This document shows positions 2-18,889 of a DNA stretch of 23,458 nucleotides, one piece after another. The stretch's first letter is position 1; each line of letters begins with the position of its first letter. The DNA is taken from the IMG/VR virus record IMGVR_UViG_3300015373_000041, positions 1-23,458 of that record. One strand, written 5' to 3'. Source of the stretch: a virus. Position numbers and translations under genes: made by a program. The notes below the pieces were generated by a model. It worked only from the letters and a program-made list of their open reading frames with translations. It had not been told where the DNA came from and did not search any database.

Positions 2-1312
2 TTGATCCCCGGGTCACTCGCTTTGTGTGATGTCGAGTACCACGGCGCACAACTCGACAGGAAGTTCTACGAGAAGACGTCCAAGGATCTCGCCCGTCGA
101 TCGAAGCCCATACTCGAGCGTCTGCAGAAGAACACGGAGAAAGAGGACTTTAATCCGAACTCGCATCAGCAAGTCAAGAAGCACGTGTACGAGGTCCTGG
201 GGATGCCGTTGGCTCGAGAAGGACAGCACACTGCTCGCCGCGGCAAGTTGAAGGAAGGTCCTACTGCAAAGGCAGTCCTCAAGCACCTGGTCAAGGCACA
301 CCCGGAGAGAGACCCGAACGGCATCATCGCTGACATCCTGCAGTACAGGAACCTGACGAAGAATGCCGGCACTTACGTCAACGGAATGCTCTCTCGAATC
401 GATGACGACGACCGCATCCGTGGCAACTTCCTCCCCCATGGCACGAGCACAGGGCGCCTGTCATCGAACAACCCGAACCTCCAGAACATCCCAGAGGCGT
501 CACACACGAAGATCGAAGTACGGAACGGCTTCGTCGCTCCTCAGGGGTATGGCCTGATCGCTGCCGACTACTCGCAACTCGAATTGCGGATCGCAGCCCA
601 CTGCTCTGATGACGACAACTTCTGCCAGATGTTTATCGAAGGACGCGATCCCCACCAGGAGGTCGCCTTCGCGTTCTTCCAAAAGCCTTCTGATCAGGTC
701 ACACCCTACGAGCGGTACATGGCCAAGTGTGTGAACTTCGGCGTCGTGTACGGGCGCGGCGCTGAATCGATCGCGCTCGGTCCGGAGATGGAACACGTGG
801 TTGAGATCGGCGGCAAGCGCTGGACGACCTCTGAGGTGAAGGAATTCTTCGACAAGTTCTTTGGTCATTTCCCTGACTTCTTCGTGTGGTGCGAGCAGCA
901 GAAGCAGTTCGCCTACAAGAACCAGTACATCGAGTCTCCTCTCGGGCGCAAGAGACGTTTCCCGATGATCCCGCGCAACGATGGAGGCGCGGTCGGACGT
1001 CAAGCAGTGAACACACCGATCCAGGGCACAGCATCTGACTTCACCCTCTCGTCCCTCATCCGCATCAACAAGCGGTTCAAGACGGAGAAGATTCCTGCCC
1101 ACCTGATCCTCACGATCCACGACGCTAACTACGCCGAGTGCCACCTGGACGCAATCGATGAAGCAGTCGAGATCATGCGTGAGGAGATGGAGGACAAGGT
1201 GCCTCTCGAAAGCAGGGTGCCATTTGAGGTCGAAATCAAAGTCGGACATCGTTGGGGTGACCTCGAGAAAGTCAAAGATTTGCCAAGCGCGCTCTTCGTC
1301 TCTGAGGATTAG
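2..1312 (+). CDS. polA: DNA polymerase family A (Pol I/T7-like), C-terminal polymerase part, cut by window edge
   Basis: Template-directed DNA synthesis, presumably phage replication. The frame is open at the left edge and its apparent first codon is TTG, so the N-terminal part (any 3'-5' exonuclease domain) lies outside the window. The visible 436 residues start near the beginning of the polymerase domain (EYHGAQLD, residues 12-19). Family A motifs follow in order: GTSTGRLSSNNPNLQNIP (147-164), motif A DYSQLELR (189-196), motif B from R238 through K242, NFG and Y250 (RYMAKCVNFGVVYG), and motif C IHDA (372-375). The position equivalent to E. coli F762 is Phe. Motif C is atypical, HDA where HDE is usual. 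The stop at 1310-1312 is followed by a 104-base gap before the next plus-strand gene. Polymerase identity is certain from the motifs; the specific subfamily is not. Confidence 0.95.
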   Translation: MIPGSLALCDVEYHGAQLDRKFYEKTSKDLARRSKPILERLQKNTEKEDFNPNSHQQVKKHVYEVLGMPLAREGQHTARRGKLKEGPTAKAVLKHLVKAHPERDPNGIIADILQYRNLTKNAGTYVNGMLSRIDDDDRIRGNFLPHGTSTGRLSSNNPNLQNIPEASHTKIEVRNGFVAPQGYGLIAADYSQLELRIAAHCSDDDNFCQMFIEGRDPHQEVAFAFFQKPSDQVTPYERYMAKCVNFGVVYGRGAESIALGPEMEHVVEIGGKRWTTSEVKEFFDKFFGHFPDFFVWCEQQKQFAYKNQYIESPLGRKRRFPMIPRNDGGAVGRQAVNTPIQGTASDFTLSSLIRINKRFKTEKIPAHLILTIHDANYAECHLDAIDEAVEIMREEMEDKVPLESRVPFEVEIKVGHRWGDLEKVKDLPSALFVSED

Positions 1313-1402
1313 AGAGCATCCGCAGGTGAGTTGTCGGGGCCTGCACTCTTAACGAGAGCGCCTCGGAGAATCGTTAGACACAAACTCGCGGGAAATGGGA
1401 TG

Positions 1403-1408
1403 TATCGT
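1403..1408 (+). promoter_or_regulatory. Possible -10 element for a leaderless transcript
   Basis: TATCGT fits the actinobacterial TANNNT -10 pattern and ends 8 bases before the ATG at 1417, so transcription could begin at or next to the start codon. The gene has no Shine-Dalgarno sequence, which fits leaderless translation. No convincing -35 box is visible. The same gap carries a short inverted repeat (TAACGA 1350-1355 with TCGTTA 1371-1376) that could be an operator or the end of the polymerase transcript. Confidence 0.35.
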
Positions 1409-1416
1409 GCCCCCGC

Positions 1417-1977
1417 ATGAGATCACTCATCGCGGTGGTCGTCGCAGGGGCTCTGCTGTTTGCTGCCTCTTCGATGGCTGCTCCACAACCCGACCCCTCA
1501 CCCACAACCTACTGGCAGATCAGAGGTTGCGCTCACCACCATCGTGAGCATGTGGCGAGGAACCACATCATCGACATCCTCACCTCACCAGCGGTCCTGA
1601 CAAGGCACCGGTGGCGGTCAGTGTGGCACTTCACTGTCTGTGTGAAGTACCGCCAGTCACACCTGCGACTGCGCCACACAGTCAAGAAGTTCATGCACGA
1701 ACGGCGCTCGAATATCTACGCTCTCTTGTTCGCACGATACCCGTCCTGGGTCCACTCCAAACTCGCGTCGATCGCAGCATGTGAGTCGGGAGGCAGCCCG
1801 ACCGCGATCGGCGGTGGCGGTGCGTACCGAGGCAAGTACCAGTTCTCGTTCTCGACGTGGGGCGTTGTCGGCGGGTCAGGTGATCCTGCCGCTGCATCTG
1901 AGTCTGAGCAGGACTACCGTGCGGCGAAACTCCTTACGGAGCACGGCGCAGGTCACTGGCCTGTCTGTGGTGCCTGA
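1417..1977 (+). CDS. Secreted Rpf/transglycosylase-like muralytic protein
   Basis: Predicted exported peptidoglycan-cleaving protein of 186 residues. The N-terminus is a typical signal peptide (MRS, then a hydrophobic stretch to about residue 20, with cleavage likely near SMAAPQ). A middle region of about 75 residues, rich in His and Arg, is not recognised. Residues 112-186 form a resuscitation-promoting-factor-like lysozyme fold: IAACESGGSP with catalytic Glu123, then YRGKYQFSFSTW, and the terminal WPVCGA with a conserved Cys. Cys122 and Cys184 could form the usual disulfide. An in-frame TAG at 1375 and the lack of other start codons fix the start at ATG 1417, although no ribosome binding site is present. 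It lies apart from the lysis cassette on the opposite strand, so its role could be early or host-directed. It may instead act in lysis. Confidence 0.88.
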   Translation: MRSLIAVVVAGALLFAASSMAAPQPDPSPTTYWQIRGCAHHHREHVARNHIIDILTSPAVLTRHRWRSVWHFTVCVKYRQSHLRLRHTVKKFMHERRSNIYALLFARYPSWVHSKLASIAACESGGSPTAIGGGGAYRGKYQFSFSTWGVVGGSGDPAAASESEQDYRAAKLLTEHGAGHWPVCGA

Positions 1978-1997
1978 AAATAAAATGGGATAAACGG

Positions 1998-2026
1998 TTG
2001 ACGTTCGTAGAACCAGCCGTTATTGT
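1998..2026 (+). promoter_or_regulatory. Sigma-70/SigA-type promoter of the RNA gene
   Basis: TTGACG (1998-2003, five of six consensus bases) is separated by exactly 17 bases from TATTGT (2021-2026, TAnnnT core). Transcription would start at about 2033, immediately before a perfect 7-bp hairpin. It sits 20 bases after the stop of the Rpf-like gene and reads away from it. Confidence 0.65.
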
Positions 2027-2032
2027 CGTGGT

Positions 2033-2400
2033 TGTCGGGAGCACATATTCCTCCCGAAGAGCGAGTAACTACCTCGTGAGAAACGATGCTCAGGCTTTGA
2101 GGGGCTACGGTCCCAAATATGATGCCGCAGCGGACGTCTCACGAGGTGACTCTCGCTCGGTCAAGTCCTCACACGGAGATACCTGGAGGGACTGCACGGT
2201 GACTCGCCTCGTCGGTAACGCGGACGAGGTCTATGTAAACCACAGCCCGAGAGAGGTGCGACCACTGCCTACGCCACACGCCGTATGAGCGGTAAGCGGA
2301 TGACCAAGAACCTAGAGTTCGGGTGACGCAGGCAAAAGAGAAGTGGACCATGAACTGCGAGTTCGGGCCGGCTGGGAACCCTCAGTCGGCCTTCTCTTTT
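2033..2400 (+). ncRNA. Candidate structured non-coding RNA, about 365 nt, class unknown
   Basis: This stretch has its own promoter and terminator and is packed with perfect inverted repeats. In order: TCGGGAG/CTCCCGA (2035-2041 with 2051-2057); GAGCGAG/CTCGCTC (2059-2065 with 2152-2158), stacked outside ACCTCGTGAGA/TCTCACGAGGT (2071-2081 with 2137-2147); AGTCC/GGACT (2164-2168 with 2189-2193); CCTCGTC/GACGAGG (2207-2213 with 2223-2229); GAACT/AGTTC (2352-2356 with 2360-2364); and GCAAAAGAGAAG/CTTCTCTTTTGC (2332-2343 with 2391-2402). The last helix closes a junction holding the two final hairpins. A weak open frame (TTG 1998 to TGA 2288) begins on the -35 box itself and has no convincing protein character. 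No tRNA cloverleaf or tmRNA feature was found. The class and function are unknown; the architecture alone argues for an RNA gene. Confidence 0.6.
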
Positions 2401-2402
2401 GC
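2332..2402. terminator. Bidirectional intrinsic terminator between convergent units
   Basis: On the plus strand, GGCCGGCTG (2366-2374) pairs with CAGTCGGCC (2383-2391), nine pairs with one G-U, followed by TTCTCTTTT (2392-2400), a classic intrinsic terminator. A perfect 12-bp inverted repeat (2332-2343 with 2391-2402) surrounds it and places A-rich and U-rich runs at opposite ends. The minus-strand transcript leaving the lysin gene at 2408 therefore also ends in a stem with CTTCTCTTTT. It separates the plus-strand RNA gene from the late operon. Confidence 0.8.
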
Positions 2403-2407
2403 TACGG

Positions 2408-3130
2408 TCAGACGTCCCAAGATTCGACGTAACCAATCTTCGAGGCTACGTAGTTCCTGATCCATTGCTCTCGAGTTCCTGGCGTCCCGTTTTGCAGAGT
2501 GATCGTCCTCTGTAGGTACGGGTCGTCCGGACCTCGGTGAGCCCACACGTCCGTCCACGCCGGCGCGTTCCACGACCCACAGGACAGCCACCCTGCGATC
2601 CGAGACCGTTCGCGGTGGTGCGACACAAACGGAGCAGCGTAGTATTCCTCACGCTTCTCTCTCAGGTGTGAACACAAGCGCGAGATCGAAACGGACACAT
2701 CAAGTGCTCGATCGATCGCAGCAGGATCACCCTGAGGAGTTGAGAACTGTACGACGCCTAGATCTGCGCGAAGAATACCACTCCTGATGTACGTAGGCGA
2801 CTGAGCACCGAAACGGTACCCGCTCTCACCTTCGATCATCCCTTGTCCGAGACCTTCAGGCACACCGTTCGAGAACAGTTCGAGCGCGTGCAGGCAGAAC
2901 GCTCTCTCGGTCCCAGGTCCACAGATCCCATCCACCTTCACACCGAGTGAAGCTTGGAGAGCGCGTAGCGCTTTGTCTGTGTCCTGACCGAAGACGCCGT
3001 CCACTCGCGCAAGAGAACACGCCTCTTGGAGGGCGATGACATCGTTCCCCCTCAGGGGTCCCCCGTCCTCCGCTGAGATGAGGCGCAGCGGACGTCCGAG
3101 GAACCCCTGCGAGTAGAACGGGTAAGTCAT
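2408..3130 (-). CDS. Endolysin: peptidoglycan-binding domain plus lysozyme/transglycosylase-like domain
   Basis: Cell-wall hydrolase of 240 residues, last gene of the late operon. Residues 26-80 form a PG_binding_1 domain (LRGNDVIALQEA, VDGVFGQDTDKALRALQ, VDGICGPGTERAF). From about residue 85 the sequence resembles a goose-type or transglycosylase-like catalytic domain: GMIEGESGYRFGAQ (97-110; Glu100 or Glu102 would be catalytic), GVVQFSTPQG and a Trp-rich C-terminus. ATG 3130 is chosen because it overlaps the holin stop (ATGA). An upstream GTG/TTG extension would read through the holin gene in another frame with no family resemblance. No signal peptide is present, so it should depend on the holin. 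A catalytic domain placed after the binding domain is the reverse of many endolysins. The bond cleaved is inferred only. Confidence 0.85.
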   Translation of the reverse strand: MTYPFYSQGFLGRPLRLISAEDGGPLRGNDVIALQEACSLARVDGVFGQDTDKALRALQASLGVKVDGICGPGTERAFCLHALELFSNGVPEGLGQGMIEGESGYRFGAQSPTYIRSGILRADLGVVQFSTPQGDPAAIDRALDVSVSISRLCSHLREKREEYYAAPFVSHHRERSRIAGWLSCGSWNAPAWTDVWAHRGPDDPYLQRTITLQNGTPGTREQWIRNYVASKIGYVESWDV

Positions 3131-3411
3131 GCTGGCGGGTGCTGGGGGTCGTCCCCCGCTGCCACGACGTTCGCTGCTGCTGCGTTGAGGGTGACTGCCT
3201 GCTCGTACTTGCCACGGTTGTCGAGCCACTTGAACACGGTGCTAGCGAGCGCGAGGGCGCCGGCGACGAACAGCGCTGTGAGTTCCGTTCCATCCAGGTT
3301 TGCACCCGGGACGATCGTGCCCACCCAGGTCACGATTGCTCCTGAGATTGCAGCGAGGAGTGGAGTAAGCAGTACGACGATCCGTCCGATGTAAGGATTC
3401 TCTGGATCCAT
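3127..3411 (-). CDS. Holin (two membrane segments)
   Basis: Small membrane protein of 94 residues expected to open the cytoplasmic membrane for the lysin. It begins MDPENPYIGRIV. Hydrophobic segments lie at about 10-33 and 42-62, followed by a charged KWLDNRGKYEQ region and a hydrophilic Ala-rich tail. This layout matches the actinophage holins that sit beside lysins. A strong ribosome binding site (AAGGAGG) precedes ATG 3411, and the stop overlaps the start of the downstream lysin. It lies between two lysins. Confidence 0.82.
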   Translation of the reverse strand: MDPENPYIGRIVVLLTPLLAAISGAIVTWVGTIVPGANLDGTELTALFVAGALALASTVFKWLDNRGKYEQAVTLNAAAANVVAAGDDPQHPPA

Positions 3412-7011: not shown

Positions 7012-8138
7012 GTAATTGTTCCAGTCATTGTGCCTGGGCGGGGCAGCGGGTAAGACCCAGCCATCGTCCAGTTCGACCCGGACGCAGACCCTGCTGACCC
7101 TGTAATCGAAACAGACGTGACGTAAGCAACTCCATCAACGTCACCGATGTAATCGATAAGCAAGTTCGCACGGACGACGGGCTCGAGTTCCCAAGTAGGG
7201 ACGACTGTTACCCCCTTCGGACGTGCCCAGTTCGGCGGAGACAATAGTTCTGTGAGCATCGCGTCGATACGCGCCTTTAGGTCCGTCTGGTTGACACTCG
7301 GCCTTGCCTTGACCGTGTAGGTCACCGAGATCGTTGTGTAGGTCGGGTCGTTCAGAGTCAGGACCGTGTTGACAAGCTTGTACTGCTCGAAGTCAGCGAG
7401 AAGCTCGTTCTTCACTGCTGTTGCTACAACCTCTCCAGCACTGTCAACAACTGCGACGTTCACAGCGCGGTCACCTGCGTGCACCGCTGCTGCCCGCCCT
7501 ACTCCAGCCTTCGAGACAGCCCACATCTCGAAATCACGCGTCGTGATCAGAGTCTTCGCTTGCAGCATCAAATCCGCAGACAGGTTGTTTTGGTAGTCAG
7601 TATCGTCCTCAGGGTCAGTACCATTTGCAGTTGCTGGTCCAAGGATCACGTCATCGAGTCCCGCAAGGCTTGAAATCGGAGTGACTACTGACCCTGTAAG
7701 CCCGTTCGCTTCTTCACCTGAAATCGCAGCCGTGACTGGCACACCTGACGCAGCAATAGTTCCGACAGGCACAGTTGTTTCTGAGTCAACGCGGAACGCG
7801 TACCCGTCAACGTCAATCTCGAAGTCCTGTGGGATCGTGTACCCAGCAGTATCGATGAATATGAACGTGGCAGTAGAAGTGGCAGGAGACCCTGGGTCGT
7901 AGGGGCGCCCGATCAGTTTGGTTCCGTACTCCCTGAAGATTGCTGGAGGCACCTGTGCACACGTCTGAGCAGTGTCTTCTGCCATATGCGAGAGTGTCTC
8001 GATCTGAATGACCTCAGGGTCGCCATCATTCGGCTCCCACCCAGGCCACCTGTCAGCAAGACGATCGACCGCGTCGTCAGCGAGCGTCTGAGCATCGACT
8101 TCGATCGGGACCTCAACGAAGAAGTCACTTGCTTCCAT
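7008..8138 (-). CDS. Baseplate wedge protein, P2 gpJ-like (Baseplate_J family)
   Basis: 376 residues, wedge component of a contractile-tail baseplate. The N-terminal part has the family's RYGTKLIGRPYDPGSPATSTATF-type sequence (here FREYGTKL, about 68-90) and the TIPQDFEIDVDGYAFRV stretch (about 100-116). The centre has DTDYQNNLSADLMLQAKTLITTRDFEMWAVSKAGVGRAAAV (about 185-225), typical of J proteins. The C-terminus repeats the beta-rich VTYTVKARP and ARIDAMLTELLSP pattern. It starts on a TAATG overlap with the gp25 gene. Confidence 0.92.
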   Translation of the reverse strand: MEASDFFVEVPIEVDAQTLADDAVDRLADRWPGWEPNDGDPEVIQIETLSHMAEDTAQTCAQVPPAIFREYGTKLIGRPYDPGSPATSTATFIFIDTAGYTIPQDFEIDVDGYAFRVDSETTVPVGTIAASGVPVTAAISGEEANGLTGSVVTPISSLAGLDDVILGPATANGTDPEDDTDYQNNLSADLMLQAKTLITTRDFEMWAVSKAGVGRAAAVHAGDRAVNVAVVDSAGEVVATAVKNELLADFEQYKLVNTVLTLNDPTYTTISVTYTVKARPSVNQTDLKARIDAMLTELLSPPNWARPKGVTVVPTWELEPVVRANLLIDYIGDVDGVAYVTSVSITGSAGSASGSNWTMAGSYPLPRPGTMTGTIT

Positions 8139-8458
8139 TACGCGTCTACCTCCACGTCAACTGAGATGTGGCGTGTCGCAGCGTCTGCCGCGTCTGCCCA
8201 CTCCACTGCACTTGCCCTACCACGAGGCTCGAAGGTACGGAGAGCGTCCTCGAGCGATCGGGTGTCGATAGGTATATTCGCGAACTCAGGGAACGGCCAC
8301 CCGAACTCAGGACGGTCGTCCCGGAATCCTAGCGGGCACCTGACGATCGTGTTCTCACAAGAGCGAACATGCTCCTCTGTGTCCTGTTCGACGCACACAA
8401 CCTTTCCGTCTGTGCCTCGGCGGAATGGGTACTCGAAGTGTGGTCGATCAAACTTCAT
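8138..8458 (-). CDS. Baseplate wedge protein, gp25/gpW-like lysozyme-fold protein
   Basis: 106 residues. gp25 proteins nucleate the wedge that triggers sheath polymerisation. Family hallmarks are visible: an N-terminal FEYPFR segment, EQDTEEHVRSCENTIVRCPLGFRDDRPEFGWPFPEF (about 25-60), where phage gp25 proteins have 'I...I..il.t..GeR...p.fG'. Four cysteines are present. The ribosome binding site before ATG 8458 is weak (AGTAGG); the spike gene stops only three bases earlier, so re-initiation is likely. Confidence 0.85.
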   Translation of the reverse strand: MKFDRPHFEYPFRRGTDGKVVCVEQDTEEHVRSCENTIVRCPLGFRDDRPEFGWPFPEFANIPIDTRSLEDALRTFEPRGRASAVEWADAADAATRHISVDVEVDA

Positions 8459-8461
8459 TCT

Positions 8462-9718
8462 TTAACCTACTCTCACTGGTAGAACCTTCAGCCAGCGGTT
8501 CAGCCACGCGCCCGTACCCGCCGACGCCTTGTACTGCATTTTCACCACGTCGGAGGCCGCGAGCGTGCGGCGCATCTGACCGGAGCCCGCACTGCCCTGA
8601 GCCGTCGCGGGCGTGATGCCCGCCGTGGCCTGATAGGACACGATCTCGTTATCTGACGTAGCCGCAGTCCCGAGCTTCAGTGCAGCAATGAGCGTCGAGT
8701 TGCCCGTCGCTGAGATGAACCCAAGCGCACCACCGCGTAGCTCGTAGTCGCCAGCGAGCGGAACCGTGACTTGCGGCCCCACGGTGGCAGCCAGATCGCC
8801 GTAGGCAGCGTTCGCGCGGGAGGAGTTCGTCAGGATCTCGTCGCTGAGCGGAGGTCCCCCGACGTACACCCACCGCTTCCCGGCGGGCTGACTCGCTATG
8901 TACTTAAGGTGCCAATAGATGCCATTTGTAGCATCTGCTGTATAGTAGACCTCATCACCGTCCGCTGGGCTCCCAGGAAGGGATGTAACAACAGGTACCA
9001 AAAGTTGATAAGTACCTGAGTGAGTGTGGTTGCCAGGTGCAGCTTGGGTAGCACCTGTACCGAGTGTCCGGCGTGACGCAGTTCCTGATGCTGCATCAGA
9101 AGCAAGAGAAAGTTTCGACTCCGCAATCGCAGCTGCTGCGTTGACATCTGCATCAACGATTACACCTGCACCGATCTGAGGATTCGGGTAACTCCCAGAC
9201 AGGTCACCTCCGGCAGAGCCTCCTGGGCTCGGTGCCGCGTTTCCGGGCATTGCCTGTAGGGCACCAGGTCCTAGAGTCCTTCGCGAAGCAACACCGGAAG
9301 CAGCATCTGAAGCAAGAGCAAGTTTCGACTCCGCAATCGCAGCGCCCGCGTTGACATCCGCGTTAACGATGACGCCTGCACCAATCTGTGGATTCGGATA
9401 GGTGCCACTCAGATCTCCACCTGCTGGTCCTGCAGGAGGATTCGAATTTTGCTCACGGGACCACCCGACAACCCAGATGTCTCCATCGTCATCGAACGCT
9501 ACTACACACGTGTCCCCAACCTGGGGCAATGACGCACCTGGGATGCTCCAGTTCTCAGATGGTATTGTGTACTCGAGGACCTTACTGTAGTTCGTCAGGA
9601 CGACAGACATCTTGTCGAGCGCGTCCACCGGAGCATAAATCACCCTGGCTCGCGCAATCGGAACACGCGCTGTGCGCTCTGGTCCGCCAGTAAGGTCAGC
9701 GAGGGTACTGCCCGTCAT
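8462..9718 (-). CDS. Composite baseplate spike (gpV/gp5-like OB domain) with fibre repeats and beta-rich C-terminus
   Basis: 418 residues. Residues 16-88 form an OB-fold-like spike base (ARVPIARARVIY, PQVGDTCVVAFDDDGDIWVVGW). Residues 100-160 and 170-230 are two copies of a GGDLSG(T/S)YPNPQIGAGV module, spaced exactly 70 residues apart. Residues 243-295 (VTSLPGSPADGDEVYYTAD, KRWVYVGGPPL) resemble the linker found in many phage fibres. Residues 315-418 are beta-rich and resemble a C1q/TNF-like receptor-binding head (VTVPLAGDYELRGGALGF, RRTLAASDVVKMQY). It therefore seems to join a puncturing spike base to a receptor-binding fibre. GC content rises abruptly in the last 430 bases. It overlaps the hub stop (ATGA). 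Confidence 0.82.
   Translation of the reverse strand: MTGSTLADLTGGPERTARVPIARARVIYAPVDALDKMSVVLTNYSKVLEYTIPSENWSIPGASLPQVGDTCVVAFDDDGDIWVVGWSREQNSNPPAGPAGGDLSGTYPNPQIGAGVIVNADVNAGAAIAESKLALASDAASGVASRRTLGPGALQAMPGNAAPSPGGSAGGDLSGSYPNPQIGAGVIVDADVNAAAAIAESKLSLASDAASGTASRRTLGTGATQAAPGNHTHSGTYQLLVPVVTSLPGSPADGDEVYYTADATNGIYWHLKYIASQPAGKRWVYVGGPPLSDEILTNSSRANAAYGDLAATVGPQVTVPLAGDYELRGGALGFISATGNSTLIAALKLGTAATSDNEIVSYQATAGITPATAQGSAGSGQMRRTLAASDVVKMQYKASAGTGAWLNRWLKVLPVRVG
9029..9211 (-). repeat. Spike module, copy 2
   Basis: Encodes residues 170-230 of the spike. It matches copy 1 at the protein level except at a few positions (T/S, N/D, G/A) and shares long identical DNA runs, including the bases for AAIAESKL. 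Confidence 0.9.
9239..9421 (-). repeat. Spike module, copy 1
   Basis: Encodes residues 100-160 of the spike, from GGDLSGTYPNP to the PGN that ends the unit. Copy 2 starts 210 bases downstream in coding direction, an exact 70-codon period. Confidence 0.9.
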
Positions 9719-17195: not shown

Positions 17196-17590
17196 GCAAT
17201 CACACCCCCAACGCCCCGCGTAACGAACTCGAGCAAGGTGATCGGAATCTTCTTGCGTTCTGTCGGCTGCAACTTCAGGACGGCACTCTTGCCCTTCTTG
17301 TCCTTGTGGAAGCGGGCGTAGTAAACCTCAGTACCGAAAACGAGTTCCTGGGCATGGGCCTCCCTGATGGCATCGTTTGCTTGAGGCTGAGTAAGCGACT
17401 CCATGAGGCGACCTGTGTCCACGTACTTGCCGTGGTATCGCTTGAAGAGACGCTTCTCGCCTTCCTCGAGCATCTGCGACACGACCTCGAACCCAGGACG
17501 CATGTCTCTCGCCCTGTAAGAAATCTTCTTGAGTTTCCCCTCTGCCTCGTCAAACCCGAAGGCCTGAATATCAAAGGTGACTCCAGCCAT
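17192..17590 (-). CDS. Phage virion morphogenesis / tail completion protein (PF05069-like)
   Basis: 132 residues, basic. The motif GKYVDTGRLMESLTQPQANDAI (54-75) with FGTEVYYARFHKDKKGK (about 85-101) and ERKKIPITLLEF is the hallmark of this head-tail completion family, related to Mu gpG and lambda-type neck proteins. It starts on a TAATG overlap with the connector gene and ends in a GTGA overlap with the tail terminator-like gene, so the three neck genes are translated together. Confidence 0.8.
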   Translation of the reverse strand: MAGVTFDIQAFGFDEAEGKLKKISYRARDMRPGFEVVSQMLEEGEKRLFKRYHGKYVDTGRLMESLTQPQANDAIREAHAQELVFGTEVYYARFHKDKKGKSAVLKLQPTERKKIPITLLEFVTRGVGGVIA

Positions 17591-18282
17591 TAGGCGATGC
17601 TCCTCAGGAGACGAACCTGCTTGAGTTCTTCCTGAACGGAGGACTGCAGGTTAAGGATCGCCTGATTGAAAAGCGTCCGCCACAACTCGACGCCAGAGTT
17701 GTCTAGACCTTCCTTGAAGTAACCGCCCTCGATCAGCATGGCAGTGTAAAGCGCGACCGCGTGCTTCACACCATCGAAGTGAACGTCTGAGAAGCGAGGC
17801 TCTGAGATCTGGTTGAGGACAGCACCTACCGATTGATCGATCAGGTTCTCAACTTCGTCTACAGACGGACGTGTCGTCTCGGTGAACTCGCGCACTTCAC
17901 CTCCGCCTCCTGAGGCAGTCCTCGTCTGCTCGAGCGCCACGATGTCGTCAAGCGTCGGGCGCACGTTCTCAGGCTGGACGATGTCGTAGGGGACGGGAGG
18001 ACTGACCCCTGCTGCAGCAACGTGAAGCGGGATGAAGGTCTCATACTCTGGGGGCTCAGGATCTCCTGTCCTCCATACCAGGTTGTAGTCACCTGGCAGA
18101 ACTGGCGCCTCCGTTGCGACTGACCACTCGCTCGTATCCGGATTGAGCGACGCAACACGCCAGAAGGACTGAATGGCTCGCGTGACCGGGTCTTCGATGC
18201 GAGCACCAAGAGGCCAAGCGCCTGACAACCCGGCAGGGTCGATCAGGGTAGCGATGAAAGGTTGGTCAGCGATTGCCTGCAT
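17590..18282 (-). CDS. Head-tail connector/adaptor-like protein
   Basis: 230 residues. An N-terminal beta-rich part (1-90: PFIATLIDPAGLSGAWPLGARI, SFWRVASLNPDTSEW) and a C-terminal helical part (108-225: LDDIVALEQTRT, RPSVDEVENLIDQSVGAVLNQ, HAVALYTAMLIEGGYFKEGLDN, LFNQAILNLQSSVQEELKQV). The helical part resembles gp6-like connector proteins that dock below the portal. ATG 18282 is the first possible start, since an in-frame TGA lies six bases upstream, and it lacks a clear ribosome binding site. The gap before it is filled by a hairpin. Exact family is uncertain. Confidence 0.68.
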   Translation of the reverse strand: MQAIADQPFIATLIDPAGLSGAWPLGARIEDPVTRAIQSFWRVASLNPDTSEWSVATEAPVLPGDYNLVWRTGDPEPPEYETFIPLHVAAAGVSPPVPYDIVQPENVRPTLDDIVALEQTRTASGGGGEVREFTETTRPSVDEVENLIDQSVGAVLNQISEPRFSDVHFDGVKHAVALYTAMLIEGGYFKEGLDNSGVELWRTLFNQAILNLQSSVQEELKQVRLLRSIA

Positions 18283-18292
18283 GTCTCAGTAC

Positions 18293-18341
18293 GTGACAGA
18301 GGCCACCCAGGATGTGAAGTCCTGGGCAGCCTCGTGGTCAC
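18293..18341 (-). other. Intergenic hairpin before the connector gene
   Basis: Three perfectly complementary blocks line up: GTGAC/GTCAC (18293-18297 with 18337-18341), GAGGC/GCCTC (18299-18303 with 18329-18333) and CCAGGA/TCCTGG (18307-18312 with 18320-18325), separated by small internal loops. It fills most of the 68-base gap. There is no U-run in minus direction, so an RNA stability or attenuator role is more likely than termination. Confidence 0.6.
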
Positions 18342-18350
18342 GATGTTCGA

Positions 18351-18659
18351 TCAGGGCGTGTAGCCCGCGTCTCGAAGCGCCTGGCGCTTCTCGTCTGCCT
18401 TCATGGACGAGGCGCCTTCGATGCCGGCGGCCTCAACCGCATCATCGAGATCCTCGCCCTTGAGATCAGCGATCGGGTCTGCAGCGTCCTCACTGACGAC
18501 GTGACCCGAGACGACCTTCTCGTCCGTCTCCTCGACGTCCGAGTTGTTGACGGGTTCGTACCCGACAGGGAACACATCCCCAGCGACGACGACACGACGG
18601 ACCTCGACCCCTGAGCTGTTGTCGACTGCGTAGGTGTTTCGGAGAGCCTTGTAGCCCAC
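18351..18659 (-). CDS. Tandem paralogue 2: small protein with C-terminal SAP/Rho-N-like motif
   Basis: 102 residues. The first 55 residues (VGYKALRNTYAVD, GDVFPVGYEP, SDVEETDEKV) repeat the neighbouring upstream protein. The last 40 (DLKGEDLDDAVEAAGIEGASSMKADEKRQALRDAGY) look like a HeH/SAP or Rho N-terminal helix-extended-helix motif, often found at the end of small virion or head proteins in actinophages. GTG 18659 is chosen because homology to the paralogue begins exactly there and the GAGGAGG ending the previous gene serves as ribosome binding site. The two genes overlap by one base (TAGTG). A longer frame upstream is a shadow. Position suggests a head accessory protein; function unknown. 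Confidence 0.75.
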   Translation of the reverse strand: MGYKALRNTYAVDNSSGVEVRRVVVAGDVFPVGYEPVNNSDVEETDEKVVSGHVVSEDAADPIADLKGEDLDDAVEAAGIEGASSMKADEKRQALRDAGYTP

Positions 18660-18835
18660 TACTCCTCCTCGTTCCGGTAACCCACGATGCCGTCCACTGC
18701 GACCTCGTCCGTCTCTTCGACGTCCGACTTTGTCTCCGGCTCGTACCCAGAGGGAACGAGGTCCCCTTCCGAGACAAGGCGGCGAGCCCCAGCAGCGTCG
18801 ACCGCGTAGGTGGTCTTTGTTGCCTTGTATCCCAC
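18659..18835 (-). CDS. Tandem paralogue 1: small acidic protein behind the capsid gene
   Basis: 58 residues, GTG start at 18835 with ribosome binding site AGAAAGGAG. Sequence blocks VGYKATKTTYAVD (1-13), EGDLVPSGYEP (23-33) and SDVEETDEVAVDGIVGY (37-53) correspond in order to the next gene. The end, NEEE, is encoded by bases that double as the ribosome binding site of that gene. It probably forms a small beta domain. Placement directly after the capsid gene, past a hairpin, fits a head decoration or head fibre-base protein, but this is inference. Confidence 0.75.
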   Translation of the reverse strand: MGYKATKTTYAVDAAGARRLVSEGDLVPSGYEPETKSDVEETDEVAVDGIVGYRNEEE

Positions 18836-18855
18836 TTCGGTGTCTCCTTTCTGAC

Positions 18856-18889
18856 CGTCGCCCGAGTGACAAGGATCACCCGGGCGACG
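18856..18889 (-). other. Hairpin between capsid gene and the tandem paralogues
   Basis: CGTCGCCCGAGTGA (18856-18869) pairs with TCACCCGGGCGACG (18876-18889) over 13 of 14 positions with a six-base loop. On the minus strand it lies 21 bases after the capsid stop codon and is followed by GTCAGAAAGGAG, not a U-run. It could stabilise the capsid mRNA end or reduce read-through into downstream genes. Confidence 0.65.

Follow-up and report, generated by a model that had tools for sequence, protein, structure and literature searches.

Two convergent gene blocks of a soil bacteriophage meet at a gap (approximately 1978-2407), which raises the question of whether this gap holds an RNA gene of its own. 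The window, i.e., the whole stretch of 23,458 nucleotides analysed here, corresponds to positions 1-23,458 of the metagenome-derived IMG/VR virus record IMGVR_UViG_3300015373_000041. The gap is filled by the candidate RNA region and is flanked by the following genes, some of whose names are based on synteny and on reading of the translations.

2-1312, plus strand: family A DNA polymerase gene, facing the gap
1417-1977, plus strand: gene for a transglycosylase-domain protein (PF06737)
2408-3229, minus strand: lysin gene, facing the same gap from the opposite side
Beyond the lysin gene: small genes, an M15-type peptidase-like gene, and tail, capsid, portal and terminase genes

Promoter-like start and terminator

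The original prediction placed a promoter and a terminator at the two ends of the candidate RNA. The promoter hexamers with 17-base spacing and the GC-rich hairpin with a U-run at the 3′ end are indeed present.

1978-1997, plus strand: A/T-rich, UP-element-like tract (14 of 20 bases A/T), directly 5′ of the -35 box
1998-2026, plus strand: sigma-70/SigA-type promoter candidate, TTGACG-17-TATTGT (consensus match only)
2332-2402, plus strand: terminator with an outer stem (2332-2343/2391-2402), an inner GC-rich hairpin (2365-2392) and a U-rich tail (consensus match)

In the promoter candidate, TTGACG (1998-2003) and TATTGT (2021-2026) are separated by a 17-nt spacer. The same promoter criteria are satisfied by three sites in the window, both strands included, and a TTGAC -35 element is found only in the one at 1998-2026. 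Only 0.19% of the 20-mers in the window are as A/T-rich as 1978-1997, and this rare tract and the promoter candidate occupy precisely the space that separates the transglycosylase stop codon from the RNA. At the opposite end, the hairpin at 2365-2392 consists of 12 pairs, 8 of which are G-C, and is followed by TCTCTTTTGC. The terminator is the strongest among those listed for the window. It ends at 2402, just ahead of the stop codon of the opposing lysin gene, and may in addition act as terminator for the lysin operon. As judged by consensus only, the region has its own promoter and its own terminator, as expected of an independent phage non-coding RNA.

Folding of the candidate RNA

The region 2033-2402 as a whole has a predicted folding energy of -156.7 kcal/mol (z -4.35). 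None of 100 dinucleotide shuffles was as good, in agreement with the original prediction of a fold better than shuffled controls, and the z value is the lowest among 156 370-nt windows on both strands. Ordered pairing had been proposed for all 370 bases. This proposal holds for the 5′ domain (2033-2160; z -5.59, 0 of 200 shuffles as good, rank 2 among 732 128-nt windows) and for the terminator domain (2290-2405; z -3.91 relative to shuffles), but not for the middle part (2160-2328), which shows no folding excess (z -0.44, 62 of 200 shuffles as good). The real, beyond-chance structure is that of the 5′ and terminator domains. The weight of these z values is limited by the controls: 128-nt windows at 18241, 19457, 18817 and 23041 reach z values of -5.0 to -5.8, and a z of -4.23 was obtained for an unexceptional coding segment of the sister phage (described below); the windows with similar z values elsewhere are coding or intergenic.

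Folding of the minus strand is almost equally good (z -3.41 for the whole region and -5.57 for the 5′ domain); therefore, the folding energy alone cannot set the strand. Two features hint at the plus strand: the C(UACG)G tetraloop at 2105-2110, whose stem includes a G-U pair, and the direction in which the promoter and terminator point. The predicted structural elements are as follows.

2033-2160, plus strand: 5′ structured domain, consisting of the P1 hairpin followed by a rod of P2, P3 and an apical hairpin
2035-2041/2051-2057, plus strand: P1 hairpin, 7 bp, a perfect inverted repeat
2059-2065/2152-2158, plus strand: P2, 7 bp, mean pair probability 1.00
2070-2081/2137-2148, plus strand: P3, 12 bp, mean pair probability 0.96
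2101-2114, plus strand: apical hairpin GGGGC-UACG-GUCCC, 5 bp with a C(UNCG)G tetraloop, pair probability 0.98
2207-2229, plus strand: lone 7-bp hairpin CCUCGUC/GACGAGG (arms 2207-2213/2223-2229), pair probability 0.98-1.00

Perfect inverted repeats of 7, 7, 11, 7 and 12 bp, all of which had been noted earlier, were located at their expected positions. The 11-bp repeat (2071-2081/2137-2147, with 55 nt between its arms) lies inside P3. The rod of the 5′ domain extends over approximately 100 nt and is capped by the C(UACG)G tetraloop, and the hairpin at 2207-2229 is the sole exception in the otherwise unremarkable middle region. A loop-rod contact (pseudoknot) may form between CAUAUU (2044-2049) and AAUAUG (2116-2121). 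The strict 5-bp match between these segments was reached by 8 of 300 shuffles of the 5′ domain and by 71 of 300 shuffles of the whole RNA, so that the contact is only suggestive.

The same structures could instead form the 3′ UTR of the operon that carries the polymerase and transglycosylase genes. The RNA would then arise by read-through, a structured and partly bidirectional terminator would separate the convergent operons, and there would be no RNA gene. The region lies exactly where the plus-strand polymerase and hydrolase genes meet the minus-strand structural/lysis operon, and 2332-2402, with its A-rich 5′ arm and U-rich 3′ arm, would suit termination from either side. In a co-linear phage (locus L011), too, a hairpin is present where the convergent genes meet. 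However, the junction in L011 is only about 130 bp, and a terminator alone needs neither 300 nt with a rod of z -5.6 lying 170 nt upstream nor, within the gap, a promoter preceded by an A/T-rich tract. We regard this explanation as unlikely, if still credible.

Duplicated 22-nt element

The 3′ part of the candidate RNA contains a repeat, which was detected as a self-match.

2302-2323, plus strand: 22-nt repeat copy 1, GACCAAGAACCTAGAGTTCGGG, hairpin GAAC-5-GUUC
2346-2367, plus strand: 22-nt repeat copy 2, hairpin pair probability 0.93

The two copies are 44 nt apart and identical at 18 of 22 positions, with all four differences in the loop or bulge; the self-match score is better than that of all 60 shuffles (60/60). 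Copy 2 lies in the 5′ half of the terminator, between the outer and inner stems. The pattern of differences, as read from the two copies, would fit a kept hairpin and equally a kept DNA palindrome. Indeed, the inverted repeats might constitute a DNA element, i.e., a site for replication, recombination or protein binding in which folding is incidental. The palindromes do not differ in quality between the strands, and the duplicated GAAC-N5-GTTC is itself palindromic and could be a protein-binding site. In contrast, there is no GC-skew turn at the candidate region, the 22-nt repeat was not found elsewhere in the window, related loci have only poor 4-mismatch matches to it, and the promoter, terminator and UNCG loop are all oriented for a plus-strand RNA. 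A DNA element thus appears quite improbable.

Coding potential

As the original prediction had noted, the sole open frame of the region (1998-2288) begins on the -35 box. A short orphan protein gene overlapping the structured stretch is very improbable: a 96-codon open frame with a TTG start does exist (96 amino acids), but its start codon falls on the -35 box, its codon score of -0.03 bits per codon is below those of all 23 phage genes of the window that were used (0.12-0.44), and its product has no significant match in Pfam, PHROG, NCBIfam or phage genomes (tblastn). Likewise, a peptide-pattern scan of 2.9 million viral contigs and 85,000 genomes gave no relatives of the frame; such a scan needs short exact matches and detects close relatives only. 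With no codon signature, family match or relative, conservation as a protein does not oppose the RNA reading, and the region appears to code for no protein, as is the case for an independent phage non-coding RNA.

Known RNA families, related phages and the swapped cassette

A covariance search against 4227 Rfam families, including GOLLD and ROOL, gave no match at the gathering score, which bears out the earlier impression that the region resembles no known RNA class. Under permissive settings, the best chance matches were to eukaryotic families (E 1.1 and 2). Scans of IMG/VR and GTDB genomes for exact patterns of the frame peptides, the internal repeat and the stem pair detected no second member, a single-sequence covariance model and a DNA search detected no homologue in six related virus records, and BLAST of phage and plasmid records likewise gave none. 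Because no second member was found by any of these approaches, the designation as a new structured RNA class is unsupported.

Three matches or stretches were considered and rejected. A 29-nt match in L005 (86%, E 0.008) falls within a gene with a product that is matched by QueF models; a 15-nt match in L003/L006, situated in a collagen-like gene, was judged to be due to chance; and a stretch of about 570 nt 3′ of the polymerase gene in L011 holds small ORFs and has no fold excess.

The nearest phage is IMGVR 3300018481_000854 (L002/L005/L007/L010), whose polymerase is 80% identical, followed by 3300018481_000065 (polymerase 53% identical); 3300046729_000010 (L011/L013) is co-linear with the window (baseplate 49%, capsid 66%). 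The candidate RNA is absent from all three by DNA and model search. In the sister phage 3300018481_000854, a DUF3152 gene comes after the polymerase gene, then a different lysin gene on the opposite strand, and similarity returns at window position 3193. The wall-hydrolase/lysin cassette has therefore been exchanged (window approximately 1385-3190 versus L002 approximately 7386-8785), and the RNA lies in this swapped cassette of about 1.8 kb, between flanks that are 80% (polymerase) and 67% (peptidase-like gene) identical in protein sequence.

Comparison of these phages gave several other observations. A non-coding strip directly 3′ of the polymerase gene (window 1320-1370 versus L002:7334-7385) shows 77% conservation in the two sister phages but no folding excess. 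On the minus strand, the 68-nt gap at 18283-18350, between the genes at 18351-18872 and 17590-18282, is nearly all one perfect hairpin (14 + 6 bp, z -4.65) with no U-run; this hairpin is absent at the equivalent place in the co-linear phage (z -0.73). Upstream of the sister-phage polymerase (L005:83-3617), there are genes matching QueF and QueC models. Other genes of this stretch read like QueD, QueE and FolE from their sequences, which would make up a 7-deazaguanine pathway, and the pathway perhaps serves DNA modification in the sister phage.

Proposed function

Promoter-like and terminator sequences, folding of the 5′ and 3′ domains, the absence of a coding signal and the hairpin duplication are the observed features of the region. 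On balance, we think it probable that the region is a self-contained, lineage-restricted non-coding transcription unit of the phage, with a candidate RNA of about 370 nt. From these features we infer its transcription and the ends of the RNA, together with its stability, its binding of a protein and its role, as follows. Host RNA polymerase would initiate at approximately 2033, directed by the TTGACG/TATTGT promoter and the A/T-rich tract preceding it, and would stop at the hairpin-U tract at approximately 2402 to give the 370-nt RNA. The 5′ third would fold into a hairpin and a long UACG-capped rod, and the 3′ third would be the terminator domain with two small GAAC/GUUC hairpins. Such an RNA would most likely be stable and abundant and act as itself, with the rod resisting decay. 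The hairpins may serve as protein-binding sites, one example being a decoy function while the phage takes over its host; given a non-coding transcription unit, we consider this protein-binding or decoy mode possible, somewhat short of probable. No antisense fit beyond chance was found to the 29 phage translation starts, which would favour a structure-acting RNA over a base-pairing regulator. It is doubtful that the candidate represents a new class, which would be defined by a UACG-capped rod, a possible loop-rod contact and duplicated protein-binding hairpins in a swappable lysis cassette.

As it stands, the candidate is a single-copy prediction. If transcribed, it would be a compact addition to the few non-coding RNAs of phages, and it would indicate that such RNAs can be lineage-specific cargo of the variable lysis region that homology-based annotation does not see.

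Comparison with known phage RNAs

GOLLD and ROOL, which are large structured RNAs of phages and prophages with unknown function, are a more remote analogue in kind (PMC12286853). GOLLD often exceeds 800 nt (PMC12286853), whereas the candidate is about 370 nt. GOLLD and ROOL have covariation-supported multi-helix folds, in contrast to the two significant domains only, both predicted, of the candidate; they are often, but not obligatorily, located near tRNA islands (PMC12286853), whereas no tRNA or tmRNA was detected in the 23-kb window by ARAGORN.

Abundant non-coding RNAs were demonstrated by RNA-seq and northern blotting in the cluster A mycobacteriophages L5, D29 and StarStuff, in which about 500 bp are transcribed and the right-end region has a toxic effect on M. 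smegmatis (PMC5712189). Like the candidate, these RNAs are phage-encoded, non-coding and little conserved, with no ORF of note and a strong promoter (PMC5712189). They differ in being expressed from the early promoter Pleft at the genome end with no clear terminator (PMC5712189), whereas the candidate is placed between convergent genes, ends in a candidate terminator and is predicted from sequence. The RNA of phage ICP1 is approximately 800 nt and is the top ICP1 transcript by RNA-seq, whereas the candidate is 370 nt and predicted only; like the candidate, the ICP1 RNA occupies an orf-less gap adjoining lysis genes and was proposed to be a stand-alone RNA (PMC7567579).
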